The position numbers and the translations under genes were made by a program. A stretch of DNA of 64,000 nt from Labedaea rhizosphaerae (GTDB lineage: Bacteria; Actinomycetota; Actinomycetes; Mycobacteriales; Pseudonocardiaceae), in the NCBI RefSeq assembly GCF_004362825.1, contig NZ_SNXZ01000011.1:1-64000 (forward strand). Direction: 5' to 3'. Under the pieces are notes generated by a model, which made no database searches, was not told the DNA's origin, and saw only the letters and a program-made list of their open reading frames with translations. This document shows positions 56,002 to 62,154 of the stretch, piece by piece; position 1 is the first letter of the stretch; each line of letters starts with the position of its first letter.

Positions 56002-56507
56002 AGTGACCCCACGATCGGGTGGCCGTCTAAGGCGCCTTGCCATTGCCGAGTGCTCACGGAGAGTGCCGGAATGGCCACGGTAGTGAAGGTTTTCCCATTC
56101 GGCCGGTCGTCGTGGGCCGACCGGCGGTACGCCTCGTCGGTGCTGGTGGCGGCGGGGACGGGGTCGGACGGAAATCATCGAGCAAACCCCGTCGAATGTC
56201 CGAGGTGCCATTCCATGGCTCGCAAAGAAGCGGCCGGCGAACAATTCCTCGGACTTCGTTCGCGTCATTCTTTGGCAGAAGTTCCGCGTGTCCGGTAATT
56301 GCGGTGGCAATGGACTTTGCCGTGTTGACAGCGATGGTCGGCGGTGCCAAGCTTCCACCCCTGTGTCTGGATACGCCCTGACGCGCCGCGGATGATAACG
56401 GGTGAGGTGTTGTCCCGGTCGTATCACAGCGCGGTATAGGATCTGCCGCGCTCGTTCGACTGCCAGTGCATTGTTGCGCCACCGACTCCACGCGAGGAAC
56501 TTCACCC
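55981..56507 (+). promoter_or_regulatory. 527-base intergenic region with possible conservon promoter
   Basis: No gene is supported here; the only open frames are short and lack coding bias. Base composition is less GC-rich than its surroundings, particularly 56180-56460. A possible promoter is TTGTCC (56410-56415) and TATAGGAT (56435-56442), separated by 19 bases and about 65 bases before the first conservon gene. Confidence 0.4.
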
Positions 56508-57986
56508 ATGCCGGAGCAAAACCCATTACCGCACCCCGACCGGCGCAAGCCGGTCGCGCGGCCGCTGCTGGCCGCACTGGTGACCGCGGTGCTGGTCGGT
56601 GGCCTGTGGTTCTGGGTCACGACCACCACCCCGCACGACGCGCGGCTGCCCGTCGCCATCGCGGGCGGCGTGACCGGGCTGCTGTTGTGCTTCGCGGTGT
56701 TCCTCGCCGTGTATCGCGCCGACGCCGTCCACACCAGCGAGGTTTCCGTGCGCCGGGCGTGGGAGGACACCCAGCAGATCCGCGGTGCCGCCGAGCACAT
56801 GCGGGGCGAACTCGCCCGGCTGCTCGACCAGGTCGTCCCGGCCCTCGTGCAGAAGTTGCGCGAGGCGTCGAGCGCCGAAAGCGCGCTCGCCGAGATCGGC
56901 CAGCCACCCGACGAGCTGCACCAGCGCATCCTGCGCACCCTCGCCACCGAGATCGCGGTCGGCGAACGCAGGCGGGCCGCGGCCATGGCGGCCTGCGCGA
57001 ACGCCGCGGGCCGGGTGCAGGCGCTGTCCACCAGCATGCTCGCCGACCTGCGGGAGATGGAGAACCGCAGCTCCGAGGACATGCTGGGCGACCTGATGAA
57101 GGTCGACCACAGCACCGCGCAGGCGGGCCGGCTGGCCGACTCCATCGCCGTGCTCACCGGCGCCCGCTCCGGTCGCCGCTGGACCAAGCCGATCAAGATG
57201 GAGTCGATCCTGCGTGGCGCGATGGGCCGCATCGGTGCCTACCAGCGCGTCCGCGTGCACTCCACGAGCACCACGGCGATCGCGGGTTACGCGGCCGAGG
57301 ACGTCATGCACGCGCTCGCGGAGCTGATGGACAACGCCACCAAGTTCTCCGCGCCGTCGGAGGAGGTGCACGTCTACGTCGAGGACCTGCACAACGGCAC
57401 GGTGATCACCATCGAGGACGGCGGCCTCGGGATGAAGCCACAGGCCCTCGCCCGCGCCGAACTCGCCGTCTCCCCGACGGAACCGCTCGACCTCACGATG
57501 CTGTCCGGCACCCGGCTGGGCCTGGCCGTCGTCGGTGTCCTGTCGCGCAAGCACCACCTGCACGTGTTCTTCCGGCCGTCCTCGCGCGGCGGCATCGGCG
57601 TGGTCATGCGGATCCCGAACCAGCTCATCACCCAGCCGCGCCTGGAACCGCTGCCCGAGGCGATCCCGCAGCGCCGGCCGGTGGCGGTCGGCGCACCCGC
57701 CGCCGTCGCCGCCCTGGAAGCGCCGACGCTCACCGCGACCGACAGCAGGACCGACGGCAGGACCGACACCGCGCCGGGCGAACCGCTGGAGCTCCCGCAG
57801 CGCACCCGGGGCCAGACCTTGCAGTCCGCGCAGCCGGCGCGCCACGTCGCCGAACCGTCCCTCACCGAGCGCCCCCGTGGCGACGCGGGCAGCCGGTTCG
57901 GCGCGTTCCAGCAGAGCCGCACGCGCCGGTCCATCGAGGCGGTCGAACCGGCCGAGCCCAGCTGGCCCGAGCACAACGACGCCTGA
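56508..57986 (+). CDS. Conservon sensor kinase-like protein (CvnA type)
   Basis: The 492-residue protein has two N-terminal membrane helices (about 17-62), a coiled-coil-like region and an HATPase-type domain (LAELMDNATKFSAPSEEV for the N box, IEDGGLGM for the G box), followed by a disordered Pro/Arg-rich tail of about 110 residues. A clear H-box histidine for autophosphorylation is not seen. Conservons link this kinase-like protein with roadblock, DUF742 and GTPase partners in a G-protein-like complex at the membrane. ATG 56508 has GAGGAAC upstream. Confidence 0.88.
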   Translation: MPEQNPLPHPDRRKPVARPLLAALVTAVLVGGLWFWVTTTTPHDARLPVAIAGGVTGLLLCFAVFLAVYRADAVHTSEVSVRRAWEDTQQIRGAAEHMRGELARLLDQVVPALVQKLREASSAESALAEIGQPPDELHQRILRTLATEIAVGERRRAAAMAACANAAGRVQALSTSMLADLREMENRSSEDMLGDLMKVDHSTAQAGRLADSIAVLTGARSGRRWTKPIKMESILRGAMGRIGAYQRVRVHSTSTTAIAGYAAEDVMHALAELMDNATKFSAPSEEVHVYVEDLHNGTVITIEDGGLGMKPQALARAELAVSPTEPLDLTMLSGTRLGLAVVGVLSRKHHLHVFFRPSSRGGIGVVMRIPNQLITQPRLEPLPEAIPQRRPVAVGAPAAVAALEAPTLTATDSRTDGRTDTAPGEPLELPQRTRGQTLQSAQPARHVAEPSLTERPRGDAGSRFGAFQQSRTRRSIEAVEPAEPSWPEHNDA

Positions 57987-58052
57987 TTCCCTTCTCTTGC
58001 AACGAAAACCGGATTGGAGCGAGGGAGCGGCGCCACTGCTCCCGGACAGTCG

Positions 58053-58466
58053 ATGAACGCGACCAACGCGAACCCCGAATGGCTGCTGGAGAACCTGGTG
58101 AGCATCACGCCGGGGGCGCGGCACGCGCTGGTGTTGTCCAAGGATGGGCTGAAGCTCTACCACACCGCGAGCCTCAGCGAGGACAAGGCCGACCACCTCG
58201 CCGCCATCGGCGCGGGCGTGCAGGCGCTCTCGCACGGTGCGTCGATGGAGTTCGGTGACGGCACCGGCGGCATCCGCAACAGCATGACCGAGTTCCACGG
58301 CGGCATCCTGTTCATCGTCGAGGCGGGCGCGGGCGCACACCTGGCCGTCATCGCCGCCGAGGACGCCGACGTGGGCCTCGTCGGGCACAACATGGACGAA
58401 CTGGTCGAGCAGATCGGACCGTTCCTGAGCACCGGGCCCCGGTTCGCCGGGAGCCGGCAGCCATGA
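58053..58466 (+). CDS. Conservon roadblock/LC7 protein (CvnB type)
   Basis: The 137-residue roadblock/LC7-domain protein (for example GARHALVLSKDGLKLY and GILFIVEAGAGAHLAVIA) is the expected GTPase-activating partner in conservons. Start ATG 58053 is 67 bases after CvnA; a TTG at 58014 would extend it. Its stop overlaps CvnC (ATGA), so these genes are coupled. Confidence 0.9.
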   Translation: MNATNANPEWLLENLVSITPGARHALVLSKDGLKLYHTASLSEDKADHLAAIGAGVQALSHGASMEFGDGTGGIRNSMTEFHGGILFIVEAGAGAHLAVIAAEDADVGLVGHNMDELVEQIGPFLSTGPRFAGSRQP

Positions 58467-58822
58467 GCAGACGGCTGCTCGACGACGAGGACCCGGATCG
58501 CCTCTACACCGTCACCGGCGGGCGCAGCCGCACCGACGCCATCGCACTCGACCTGGTCACGCTGATCGTCAGCGAGTCCGAGCCCGCCCCGGGCATGCAG
58601 TCCGAGCACGTCCGGATCCTGCGGATGTGCCGCCGCCCGGTCGCCGTGGTCGAGATCTCCGCCGAGCTCGCCATGCCGGTCAGCGTGGTGAAGATCCTGC
58701 TCGCCGACCTGCTCGACACCGGGCGTGTGTCGGCCCGCCACCCCGTCTCCGGCGCCGCGGGCAGCTCGCTGCCCAGCGGCGACTTCCTGAGGAAGGTGCT
58801 CGTTGGACTCCACAACCTCTGA
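58463..58822 (+). CDS. Conservon DUF742 protein (CvnC type)
   Basis: The 119-residue DUF742 protein begins with DPDRLYTVTGGRSR and has the winged-helix-like segment VAVVEISAELAMPVSVVKILLADL. It is the usual third conservon component and bridges kinase and GTPase. It overlaps CvnB and CvnD. Confidence 0.9.
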   Translation: MSRRLLDDEDPDRLYTVTGGRSRTDAIALDLVTLIVSESEPAPGMQSEHVRILRMCRRPVAVVEISAELAMPVSVVKILLADLLDTGRVSARHPVSGAAGSSLPSGDFLRKVLVGLHNL

Positions 58823-59411
58823 ACTGCCCACCCGGACCCCACTGCGGGCGACGGCGAGCAACGGCCTGAAGATCGTGGTCGTCGGCGGGTTCGGGGTCGG
58901 CAAGACCACGATGGTGCGCGCCGTCAGCGAGATCCGGCCACTGTCCACAGAGGAGGTCATGACCCAGGCGGGCGCGACCGTCGACGTGAACAACGGCGCC
59001 TACGCGAAGACCACCACGACGGTGGCGTTCGACTTCGGCCGGATCAGCCTCGACGAGCAGATGGTGCTCTACCTCTTCGGCGCGCCGGGCCAGGAACGGT
59101 TCTGGTTCCTGTGGGACAGCCTCTTCGCGGGCACGCTCGGCGCGGTGGTGCTGGTGGACACCCGCCGGCTCGCCGACTCCTGGTACGCCATCGACCGCCT
59201 CGAACACCACGGCACACCGTTCATCGTGGCACGCAACAACTTCGAGCCACCCGTGCACGACCTCAGCGCCGTGCGCGGCGCGCTGGACCTCTCGCCGGAC
59301 GTGCCGCTGATCGACTGCGACGCCCGCAACCGCGACTCGGCGAAGCAGGTCCTGATCACCCTCGTCAACCACCTGTACGCCCTGTCCACCGCCCGGGAGA
59401 ACACGCCGTGA
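58803..59411 (+). CDS. Conservon GTPase (CvnD type)
   Basis: The 202-residue small GTPase carries the P-loop GGFGVGKTT, the switch motif LFGAPGQERF and DTRRLADS. The usual NKxD base motif is replaced by ARNNFE, a known divergence in this family. Start is TTG 58803, overlapping CvnC by 20 bases; no closer ATG or GTG fits. It overlaps the following P450 by four bases (GTGA). Confidence 0.9.
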   Translation: MDSTTSELPTRTPLRATASNGLKIVVVGGFGVGKTTMVRAVSEIRPLSTEEVMTQAGATVDVNNGAYAKTTTTVAFDFGRISLDEQMVLYLFGAPGQERFWFLWDSLFAGTLGAVVLVDTRRLADSWYAIDRLEHHGTPFIVARNNFEPPVHDLSAVRGALDLSPDVPLIDCDARNRDSAKQVLITLVNHLYALSTARENTP

Positions 59412-60667
59412 CCGACATCCAGCGACCCGACGAGCTCGTGTCGAACGACGGCCGGGTGCGGCTCTACGGCCAGCAGTTCCACACGGACCCGGCGTCGCTG
59501 TACCTCGCCATCCGCCAGCACTTCGGCCCGGTCGCCCCGGTGCTGCTCGACGGCGACCTGCCCGCGTGGCTGGTCACCGGCTACCGCGAGATGCACCAGG
59601 TCACCACCGACAACGTGTTGTTCGCCCGCGACACCCGGCGCTGGAACCAGTGGGCCAACGTGCCCAGCGACTGGCCGCTGCTGCCCTACGTGATGCACAA
59701 CCCGTCGGTGATGTTCACCGAACTCGGCGAGCACCAGCGCCGCGCGGGCGCCATCGGCGACGCACTGTCCGCTGTGGACCAGTTCGAGCTGCGGGCCCGC
59801 TGCGAGAAGATCGCCGACCGGCTCATCGACGGGTTCGCAGGCACCGGCGAGGCCGACCTGATCGCGCAGTTCGCCAACCAGATCCCGTTGCTGGCCGTGG
59901 CGAAGATGTACGGCCTGTCCGAGGCGGAGACCCCGCAGCTGGTGCGCGACGTGGCCATGTCGCTGGACGTCGGCCCGGAAGCGTTGCCCGCGTACATGCG
60001 CGTGCAGGAGGCCATGGGCCGCCTCGTCGCGGCGAAGCGGAGCGCGCCGGGCAACGACGTGCCGTCGACGCTGATCCAGCACAAGGCCGGGCTGTCCACC
60101 GAGGAGATCGTGCAGGACCTCCTCGTGGTCACCGCCGCCGCGCAGCAGCCCACCGCGAACTGGATCGGCAACACGATCCGGCTGATGCTGACCGACAGCC
60201 GGTTCGCCATGACCCTGACCGGCGGTCGGGGGAGCGTCGGGCAGGCGCTCAACGAGGTCCTGTGGCACGACACCCCCACCCAGAACTTCATCGGCCGCTT
60301 CGCCACCCGCGACACGCAGTTGGGCGGTCAGCGGATCCGGACCGGGGACATGCTCGTGCTGGGCTTGGCTGCCGCCAACGCGGATCCGCACGTGCGGCCG
60401 GATTTGGCGGCGGGGTCACTCGGCAACCACGCGCACATGTCGTTCGGCAATGGGGAGCACGGATGTCCTTATCCGGCGCCGGAAGTCGCGGAGATCATTG
60501 CGCGGACGACGGTTGAGGTGTTGTTGGATCGGTTGCCTGATCTGGCGTTGGCGGTGCCGGAGGAGGCGTTGGTGTGGCAGCGGTCCATGTGGATGCGGGG
60601 GCTTGAGAGTTTGCCCGTTACTTTTACGCCTACTTATGCTGTGGGGACTTCTAGTGTTGCTTGGTGA
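59408..60667 (+). CDS. Conservon-associated cytochrome P450 (CvnE type)
   Basis: The 419-residue P450 has a heme-thiolate loop FGNGEHGCPYPAPEVA (cysteine in GC) and an I-helix TAAAQQPTAN that lacks the usual AGxxT acid-alcohol pair, which is a common CvnE-type departure. Its redox substrate is unknown. It overlaps CvnD. In its last 60 codons (from about 60470) codon use shifts from GC- to T/G-ending, the only such shift in the operon. Confidence 0.88.
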   Translation: MTDIQRPDELVSNDGRVRLYGQQFHTDPASLYLAIRQHFGPVAPVLLDGDLPAWLVTGYREMHQVTTDNVLFARDTRRWNQWANVPSDWPLLPYVMHNPSVMFTELGEHQRRAGAIGDALSAVDQFELRARCEKIADRLIDGFAGTGEADLIAQFANQIPLLAVAKMYGLSEAETPQLVRDVAMSLDVGPEALPAYMRVQEAMGRLVAAKRSAPGNDVPSTLIQHKAGLSTEEIVQDLLVVTAAAQQPTANWIGNTIRLMLTDSRFAMTLTGGRGSVGQALNEVLWHDTPTQNFIGRFATRDTQLGGQRIRTGDMLVLGLAAANADPHVRPDLAAGSLGNHAHMSFGNGEHGCPYPAPEVAEIIARTTVEVLLDRLPDLALAVPEEALVWQRSMWMRGLESLPVTFTPTYAVGTSSVAW

Positions 60668-60701
60668 CGTTTATTCCTCAACCTCTGGCTTGATTGTTTA
60701 A

Positions 60702-60782
60702 CACGCTGCGGTCAGCGTCAAGGGCGCCTTCGGCGTCGCTTCGCGATCGGCTTCGCCGACCCTTGACTCTGACCGCAGCGTG
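60702..60782. terminator. Long inverted-repeat hairpin downstream of conservon
   Basis: CACGCTGCGGTCAG (60702-60715) pairs with 60769-60782 and GTCAAGGG (60717-60724) with 60760-60767, giving a long interrupted stem. The loop has smaller nested hairpins such as CGCCTTCGGCG. It may be a strong terminator or a dispersed repeat element; the right arm lies 17 bases before the direct repeat bounding the HNH element. Confidence 0.65.
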
Positions 60783-60798
60783 CTAAAGGGCGCCCGGA

Positions 60799-62154
60799 CG
60801 AGGTTGAGGGGGCGGTGTGGTGTTCGCTCTTTTGTTGGGTTGCGTTGCCGGGCTGCGGTTGCGTTGTTTGTGTCGTTGGTTTGTTTGGCTTGAGCCCGGT
60901 TGGCGTTGGGCCGTTTGGCGGTATGTTGTGGTATGATTGGGGTTATGGATCTGGGGGAGCTTCAGTTGCTTGTCGCTGAACGTCGGCGGCTTGATTTGGC
61001 GATCCTGGATTCGATTTCTCGGGTGGATTGGCGTGAGTCCGGGTATCTGTATTTGTGGCAGTTCTTGATGGATGCGTTGCGGGTGGGTCGACGCGAGGCG
61101 AAGCAGTTGGAGACGCAGGTTTCGCTGGTGTGTCCGAAGGTGGGGATCACGGGTCAGGTGATCCCGGCGCAGCTTCCCGCGGCGCGGGAAGCGATGGCCG
61201 AGGGCGCTATCTCCACCGACCATGTCACTCGGATCGCGAAGACGGTCGCGGCGGTGCCCCATCAGCACGCCGACCAGGTCGAAGCTGATCTCGCTGAGCT
61301 GGCGCGGGAGTTCAACCCGGCCCAGCTCGCCCGCTTGGGTAAGCGCATGGTTGATGCTCTGAACCCCGACGGTCACGAGCCCGCCGACCCGACTGTGGTG
61401 GAAGCGCAGAACATCCTGGACCTGCAGGAGCGCGAGGACGGCTCGTTGAAGGGCTGGTTCGAGCTGGGCGCCGAAACGGCGGCTGTGCTGCGGCCCCTGT
61501 TGTCGTCGTTGACTGCGCCGCAGCCGGGTGATGACCGCACCCTTAGCGAGCGCCAAGGTGACGCCCTGGCCGAGGTGATCCGCTTCGCCGCCGATTCCGG
61601 TAAGGCTCCGATGGAGGGTGGCGAGCGCCCGCACATCGCGGTCACCGTGTCCCTGGAGACTCTGCAGACGGCGATCGGCAAGGCCACTCTCGACGACGCC
61701 CGGTGGATGACTCCCGAGCAGGCCCGCCGTTTCGCTTGCGACGCGGAAATCATTCCGGTGGTGCTGGGCGGCAAGTCCCAGCCAATCGACATCGGCGAAT
61801 CGAAACGCCTAGCGGACAAGCGATTGCGTAGAGCCCTTGCTATCAGAGATAGGGGTTGCGCGGCCCCGGGATGTGAGCGAACACCGAACCAATGTCACGC
61901 CCATCATATTCAACATTGGGCGGATGGCGGTCCTACGAGGCTGGACAACATGGTGTTGGTGTGTCAGTTCCACCATCGCCTGATCCACCATGCCGGTTGG
62001 ACGGTACATATGGACAACGGCCTACCGGTATTCACCCGACCAGCGTGGACGAGGCCTGCCGCCTGAACGGCGGCAGGCCCCCAAAGCCACACCCATGCAT
62101 CCGCTGCTCGGCAACGCAAACCAACCAACGAACACCACACCGAGGTTGAGGGGG
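60799..62154. mobile_element. Candidate HNH (13E12-type) mobile element with direct and inverted repeats
   Basis: CGAGGTTGAGGGGG is present at both 60799-60812 and 62141-62154 as exact 14-base direct repeats. Just inside, an imperfect inverted repeat appears: GGTGTGGTGTTCG plus TTGCGTTGCCG at 60814-60850, and the complement at 62109-62141, with 13 and 11 identical bases flanking a variable middle. A third, inverted copy (CCTCAACCTC) is at 60676-60685. The interior has lower GC and holds only the DUF222/HNH gene. It reads as an inserted element between two P450 genes; it may instead be a degenerate duplicated repeat. Confidence 0.55.
60945..62066 (+). CDS. DUF222-HNH endonuclease (13E12 repeat family)
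   Basis: The 373-residue protein has an N-terminal DUF222 helical region (about 10-250) and a C-terminal HNH nuclease, with HAHHIQHWADGGPTRLDNMVLVCQFHH carrying the HHI, DN and HH metal-binding core. Such proteins are common, often multi-copy and mobile in actinobacteria; the cellular role is unsettled. ATG 60945 is preferred; ATG 60933 has no upstream ribosome-binding site. Codon use is less GC-biased than that of neighbouring genes. Confidence 0.87.
   Translation: MDLGELQLLVAERRRLDLAILDSISRVDWRESGYLYLWQFLMDALRVGRREAKQLETQVSLVCPKVGITGQVIPAQLPAAREAMAEGAISTDHVTRIAKTVAAVPHQHADQVEADLAELAREFNPAQLARLGKRMVDALNPDGHEPADPTVVEAQNILDLQEREDGSLKGWFELGAETAAVLRPLLSSLTAPQPGDDRTLSERQGDALAEVIRFAADSGKAPMEGGERPHIAVTVSLETLQTAIGKATLDDARWMTPEQARRFACDAEIIPVVLGGKSQPIDIGESKRLADKRLRRALAIRDRGCAAPGCERTPNQCHAHHIQHWADGGPTRLDNMVLVCQFHHRLIHHAGWTVHMDNGLPVFTRPAWTRPAA

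Follow-up and report, generated by a model that had tools for sequence, protein, structure and literature searches.

The genome of Labedaea rhizosphaerae carries many copies of a distinct DUF222/HNH element whose ends are inverted, and the element is missing at the same place in relatives. The initial annotation had proposed an element of this kind from a single copy, and in this respect its proposal stands. The copy that it described lies in a 64,000-nucleotide stretch of contig NZ_SNXZ01000011.1 (positions 1 to 64,000, hereafter the window), where it occupies approximately 60676–62151 (CCTCAACCTC...GAGGTTGAGG). Six lines of evidence support the element directly: repeated units of palindrome and gene, an empty site, covarying stems, exchangeable ends, solo palindromes, and purifying selection on the gene. 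We propose that it is a REP/RAYT-like element in which an HNH nuclease with a predicted ParB/Noc-like N-terminal fold replaces the HUH transposase; we give this reading, in which the movement itself is inferred, about an even chance of being correct. To our knowledge, neither the function of DUF222-HNH genes, REP13E12 included, nor the way in which they spread has been established. These genes are abundant in actinobacteria, and their spread becomes testable through the defined ends, the solo ends, and the putative end-binding domain.

The window copy and its empty site

The initial annotation had reported exact 14-base repeats around the DUF222/HNH gene, with imperfect inverted ends just inside them. 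Both are present: the exact 14-mer CGAGGTTGAGGGGG occurs at 60799–60812 and 62141–62154, and there are two pairs of inner inverted repeats, 60828–60862/62097–62131 (35 nt) and 60813–60836/62119–62142 (24 nt), each 83% complementary. The core of the 14-mer, GAGGTTGAGG, is found four times in the window against 0.06 expected, and 0/100 shuffles reached four. A further repeat copy had been placed at 60676, outside the frame; the 10-base core is indeed there (60676–60685), but as the reverse complement, and it is an inverted arm within the element rather than an outlying direct copy. This arm pairs with 60800–60809, and the two are the arms of a single palindrome that encloses a long hairpin (60697–60724/60760–60787, 28 nt, 93% complementary). 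A hairpin was also looked for at the fourth core occurrence, 54302, and no trace of one was seen. The left end of the window element is thus a 132-nt palindrome, designated unit A, and its right end is the outer arm alone; 60676–60685 and 62142–62151 form its terminal inverted repeats. The features of the window copy are as follows.

60676..60812, + strand: left terminal palindrome, unit A (outer stem P1, long hairpin P2, and three-leaf apex); kept in 11/12 close copies with a sharp outer border, covarying, folding z −9.0 and −8.4 as single-stranded DNA and −8.2 as RNA
60676..60685, − strand: outer P1 arm CCTCAACCTC, the inverted "third copy", from the core-motif search
60697..60787, no strand assigned: P2 hairpin with a conserved apex of three mini-hairpins with 3-nt loops, from repeat search, alignment, covariation, and folding
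60799..60812, + strand: inner P1 arm, the first of the two exact 14-mers
60813..60862, + strand: left subterminal inverted repeat, pairing with 62097–62142
60945..62066, + strand: gene for the DUF222-HNH protein, 373 aa (Pfam DUF222, E 1.8e-35; HNH, E 6.3e-6)
62097..62142, − strand: right subterminal inverted repeat, from inverted-repeat pairing with the left side
62142..62151, + strand: right outer arm GAGGTTGAGG, the inverted match of 60676–60685 within the second 14-mer (62141–62154); putatively a collapsed palindrome

The element sits between two convergent genes, one encoding a cytochrome P450 and the other a P450-like protein (weak Pfam match, E 0.049), a junction that may be a favoured insertion point. 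A comparison with related strains for an empty site had been suggested, and such a site exists: in seven relatives the P450 pair is adjacent and the element is lacking. Among 80 named GTDB loci, both P450 genes were found in 71 and were convergent in 71/71, with a gap of less than 300 bases in 65. An HNH gene of the element's kind was present in 0/80 of these P450 loci; syntenic genomes with the element in place would have contradicted the initial annotation, and none was seen among them. The flanks of the relatives are too divergent for a target duplication to be read at this site, and no target motif was discernible for the element. In an Amycolatopsis and a Streptomonospora, other extra DNA lies at the P450 junction (gaps of 760 bases in L287 and 2123 in L298). 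The window also holds, at 56466–60667, an operon for a histidine-kinase-like ATPase, a Roadblock protein, a DUF742 protein, a GTPase-like protein, and a P450-like protein, a layout that we take to be a conservon.

Copies and exchangeable ends in the L. rhizosphaerae genome

A DNA search of the genome with the window copy recovered 11 relatives at 85–89% identity and 18 at 70–74%. By Pfam, the genome has 30 DUF222 genes with a stop inside the DUF222 match in 0/30, and a script found an HNH-type end in 29/30 loci, the exception being L033. Pairs of the 11 unit-A copies have a median identity of 0.894 over the palindrome and 0.876 over the gene; over the 300 nt outside, the value is 0.375. The outer border of the repeated unit falls at 60676/60677, where the median identity among these 11 copies drops from 0.89 to 0.38, and agreement among the aligned close copies begins at CTCAACCTC, the start of unit A.

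All 30 loci were searched with three palindromes, A, B, and C, the last of which starts with CTATTAGG. One of the three was found at the left of 28/30 copies, at the right of 24/30, and at both ends of 23/30. The left end of group 1 (12 copies) is A in 11 and inverted B in one; its right end is B in six, inverted A in one, and inverted C in one, with no A, B, or C in the remaining four (L009, L013, L016, and the window copy). Group 2 (17 copies) has C at the left in 16, two of them partial, and inverted C at the right in 16. No A, B, or C palindrome was found at either end of L037. The end pairings vary among copies (A/B, A/A', B/B', A/C', and C/C'), and in group 2, L010, and L019 the two ends carry a single palindrome type in inverted orientation. 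Palindromes also stand by themselves: 12/13 A units in this genome are at element ends, with a lone A at C4:129255, and B occurs about 25 times, mostly solo, with seven copies at element ends. The search with C gave at least 41 matches.

Several further features of the ends were observed. In eight group 2 copies (L021, L022, L024, L025, L026, L029, L030, and L034), a tandem array of 2–3 units of ~275–340 nt, each with an inverted C palindrome, forms the right end, and a period of about 310–340 nt was measured in three. The loop of palindrome C is G-rich, with G runs and short spacers (e.g., L020:3260–3361), and could form a G-quadruplex; palindrome C showed no folding-energy excess. A second B subfamily, an extra REP-like repeat family, occupies about ten more places (L083–L091 and L093), and its stem, CGACGG/CCGTCG vs CGGCGG/CCGCCG, carries a compensated change. 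None of its members lies beside a DUF222 gene at the 30 loci searched.

The genome-wide comparison does not bear out the target duplication that the initial annotation had read into the 14-mers. The direct pair is found at 1/30 DUF222/HNH copies, the window copy, and at none of the other 29 loci; the feature that the copies share is the palindromes. In group 1, the motif corresponds to the two arms of the left palindrome (in L010, also to the inverted right palindrome), and the group 2 loci lack it except for one stray match in L027. The 14-mer at 60799 is the inner arm of unit A and lies within the element, so it is not a target-site scar. The core of the right 14-mer is an inverted match of the outer left arm and lies directly 3' of the inverted subterminal stretch, and the best reading of the 62141 copy is a right palindrome reduced to its outer arm, the hairpin having been lost. 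Collapse of the right palindrome to its outer arm would have yielded the pair of 14-bp "direct repeats" that is seen in the window copy. The reading first suggested by the two exact 14-mers, in which an insertion sequence has inverted repeats at its termini and has duplicated 14 bp of its target, is refuted by the 1/30 count; with the left 14-mer inside the element and palindrome-arm sequence in both 14-mers, we leave it next to no chance.

Another transposase could also move the element in trans, as ISC/IscB and PATE elements are thought to be moved. Inside one group-2 element (L036:1150–2562) there is a transposase gene, which we take to be IS256-like and which splits the DUF222 gene near its start; the genome holds at least one transposase of this type. 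However, IS256-type elements make a target duplication, and none is seen here; moreover, the ends accompany DUF222 in three genera. The Y1 transposase profile (PF01797) had no match in the genome, with control profiles positive, and an IS200/RAYT transposase acting in trans was rejected on this ground. We regard mobilisation in trans as very improbable. A PADLOC search gave no match for a defence gene.

Structure of unit A and its occurrence in other genomes

Unit A folds into the outer P1 arms CCTCAACCTC/GAGGTTGAGG, a 28-nt P2 stem, and an apex of three mini-hairpins, each with a loop of 3 nt. Across the alignment of 19 A hairpins, 87.7% of the cells pair vs 73.0% when shuffled, and pairing falls to ≤47% when the partner strand is slid. 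Two-sided changes were found at 16/27 P2 pairs, in 65 cells vs 19.3 shuffled (reached by 0/500 shuffles), and the covariation score of the 19 hairpins is 0.364 vs 0.106 shuffled (again 0/500). One column pair is unpaired in 15/19 hairpins, mostly as A.C, which is G.T on the other strand. Of 157 triloops over 71 apexes, 149 read TNC (GNA on the complementary strand), a count that includes every apex with CGC after the lower stem and possibly a few spurious ones (one in L369). Pairing of P1 within a genome exceeds both the cross-genome and the shuffled controls in G000, G006, and G008, and does so by median in G009 and G026; in G077, the outer stem is unsupported, with a score of 7 vs 6 shuffled. 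These data indicate that the structure of unit A is under selection. Rfam gave no match at gathering score, the only model to respond being a microRNA, far below its cut-off; no description of the covarying hairpin family, a repeat of this bacterial family, was found in the literature searched.

A covariance model of A matched 44/150 relatives at E ≤ 1e-5, and DUF222 matched 103/150, the DUF222 counts per genome being lower bounds in rich genomes (about 14 candidates a genome were scored). When tabulated by hand, 35/44 hairpin-positive genomes were among the listed DUF222-positive ones and 9/44 were not. In one relative (G006), the covariance model placed inverted A-type hairpins around a DUF222 gene in 6/9 fetched loci; a second apex found by pattern makes L248 a seventh candidate, L246 is truncated by the end of its contig, and no DUF222 is present in L250. 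A 382-codon open frame is present in all seven loci, with Pfam DUF222 confirmed in the two tested, and the three proteins that were aligned share 19–20% identity with the window protein. In further copies in G006, the repeat reaches from one palindrome to the other, and the interior has the same orientation at both ends in six pairs; no direct repeat was seen by eye at 9 distinct elements of which both ends were inspected. In a second relative (G008), 13/15 examined hairpins adjoin DUF222 genes, which fall into two very different groups with one hairpin type, and no hairpin was found at L184, one of the five first-fetched DUF222 loci. In two other genera, unit A stands on both sides of highly divergent DUF222 genes or in front of them.

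Other genomes part the two components. No DUF222 was found near the A-type hairpin in 20/20 fetched loci of G026, G009, and G077 (L262–L281); these hairpins are solo and intergenic, and their genomes have at most a few listed DUF222 genes. Among the 19/20 loci examined for gene setting, 14 could be classified, seven between convergent genes, seven between tandem genes, and 0 between divergent genes. A search for an empty site of a solo palindrome, G077 vs G044, did not find orthologous flanks. Conversely, six genomes with multicopy DUF222 (G033, G093, G120, G117, G121, and G137) had an A-type hairpin in 0/35 loci (35 of the 40 fetched DUF222 loci, the remaining five, from G008, being examined apart). 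The median folding of their DUF222 borders was about equal to that of farther flanks, as compared at the loci with a clear ORF (36/40; 35 on the downstream side). Palindromic ends universal to DUF222 are ruled out by these six genomes, in which neither the hairpin nor a median excess of border folding was found at the loci examined.

The main rival to our proposal starts from this separation: the palindromes would be independent REP-like repeats, and the DUF222-HNH genes would home into or beside them, with the palindrome as target and outside the mobile unit. The hairpins without DUF222 in G026, G009, and G077, the nine hairpin-positive genomes outside the listed DUF222-positive set, the single hairpin type common to two very different DUF222 groups in G008, and the DUF222 families elsewhere without a palindrome all favour homing. 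It fits less well with the palindromes of G006 and of group 2 in L. rhizosphaerae, which are inverted at both ends, with repeat extents that stop at or near them, or with the equal interior orientation at both ends of the six G006 pairs; in addition, 12/13 A units of the L. rhizosphaerae genome are at element ends. We consider homing unlikely, although it is the alternative that we take most seriously.

The encoded protein, a proposed mechanism, and known systems

The DUF222 genes have evolved under strong purifying selection. The median dN/dS is 0.088 in group 1 (66 pairs) and 0.104 in group 2 (120 pairs from 16/17 copies, L033 being left out and L036 included; the first ~30 compared codons of L036 come from the transposon, which touches 15/120 pairs and may inflate the upper range). 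The median dS, 0.47 in group 1 and 0.40 in group 2, indicates that the copies are old. A further alternative is that the copies no longer move, an old spread having been homogenised by recombination or gene conversion and the palindromes being terminators or recombination hot spots. None of the other copies is identical to the window copy (85–89% identity for the closest), gene conversion is reported for REP13E12 in Mycobacterium tuberculosis (PMC13061034), and the fetched solo palindromes are intergenic, with 0/14 classified between divergent genes. Yet the strong purifying selection across copies, the mixture of end types, and the sharp borders found in numerous unrelated settings require insertion at some time. 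We find an immobile family distinctly improbable.

In a model of the full protein the pLDDT is 76.8, and in a model of the N-terminal part alone it is 94.6. When the N-terminal part (residues 12–141) was compared by VIA-align, ParB, Noc, or Spo0J structures took ranks 1–12 (Z 9.6–7.2), the best being a Noc alignment (Z 9.6, rmsd 2.4, 103 residues on a 105-residue chain); the following row, from another family, had Z 6.7. For helical domains, Z values under 13 can arise from a common arrangement alone. Foldseek gave no match at E ≤ 0.001 for the whole protein or the N-terminal part. Residues 283–360 resemble HNH nucleases (EcoKMcrA, Z 8.0; IscB, Z 7.7 to 6.3). As to a RuvC part, Pfam gives DUF222 and HNH only, and the NCBIfam IscB model scored 21.4 bits vs a cut-off of 175. 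ParB-type domains bind short inverted repeats, and the predicted ParB/Noc-like fold would fit binding of a palindromic end, which we treat as a lead from the structural model.

In the REP/RAYT-like reading that we prefer, the N-terminal part would bind the palindromic ends and the HNH domain would nick or cut at the element end or the target. The end may fold as single-stranded DNA, with three GNA-loop mini-hairpins on the outward-running strand. The element would be copied into intergenic DNA with no visible target duplication. Palindromes that stand alone would be remnants or copies of just the end, with the relation to the element that REPs have to RAYT transposases. In its fullest form, the proposal describes a new class of bacterial transposable elements: a DUF222-HNH nuclease would recognise cloverleaf-like single-stranded DNA ends (GNA-loop mini-hairpins and a genome-specific outer stem) and copy both itself and end-only palindromes. 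Such an element would be the HNH equivalent of RAYT/REP, and its ends would look like the telomere hairpins of Streptomyces. We put forward this fuller version tentatively, as possible rather than probable. Should the ends indeed form single-stranded DNA folds, hairpin-ended elements would have HNH as well as HUH enzymes among their movers.

According to PMC2817692, RAYT genes are flanked by two inverted REPs, solo REPs are mostly extragenic, and their stems show complementary changes. The present elements are similar to RAYTs so described in that a nuclease gene lies between inverted palindromes (palindromes at both ends in 23/30 copies), that solo palindromes exist (the A at C4:129255 and most of the about 25 B) and are mostly extragenic, and that the stems show complementary changes. 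They differ in the enzyme, which is DUF222 plus HNH rather than Y1/HUH, in the palindromes, which are multi-stem, ~130–190 nt long, and without a GT(A/G)G head (A, CTCAACCTC; C, CTATTAGG), and in copy number, with about 30 genes here.

REP13E12 (13E12) of mycobacteria shares the DUF222-HNH protein family and is likewise multicopy (30 copies here). In PMC13061034 it is a repeated region of undefined function with a putative phage attachment site, and REP13E12/HNH/DUF222 is named there and in PMC10589994 as a repetitive element among gene-conversion hot spots. The literature searched has no mention of terminal palindromes for DUF222-HNH or REP13E12, the latter being compared here by description only. 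IscB of ISC elements, with its HEARO RNA, resembles the present system in that an HNH nuclease adjoins a structured sequence, and the HNH folds match; unlike it, the present protein has no RuvC by Pfam, and the present structure has no Rfam match at gathering score. Streptomyces telomeres, as described in PMC4513846, have packed hairpins in the 3' overhang, with GCA loops whose closing pair is a sheared G-A. GNA-type loops are found here too; unlike the telomere palindromes, those described here are internal, dispersed repeats beside or around a nuclease gene rather than replicon ends.
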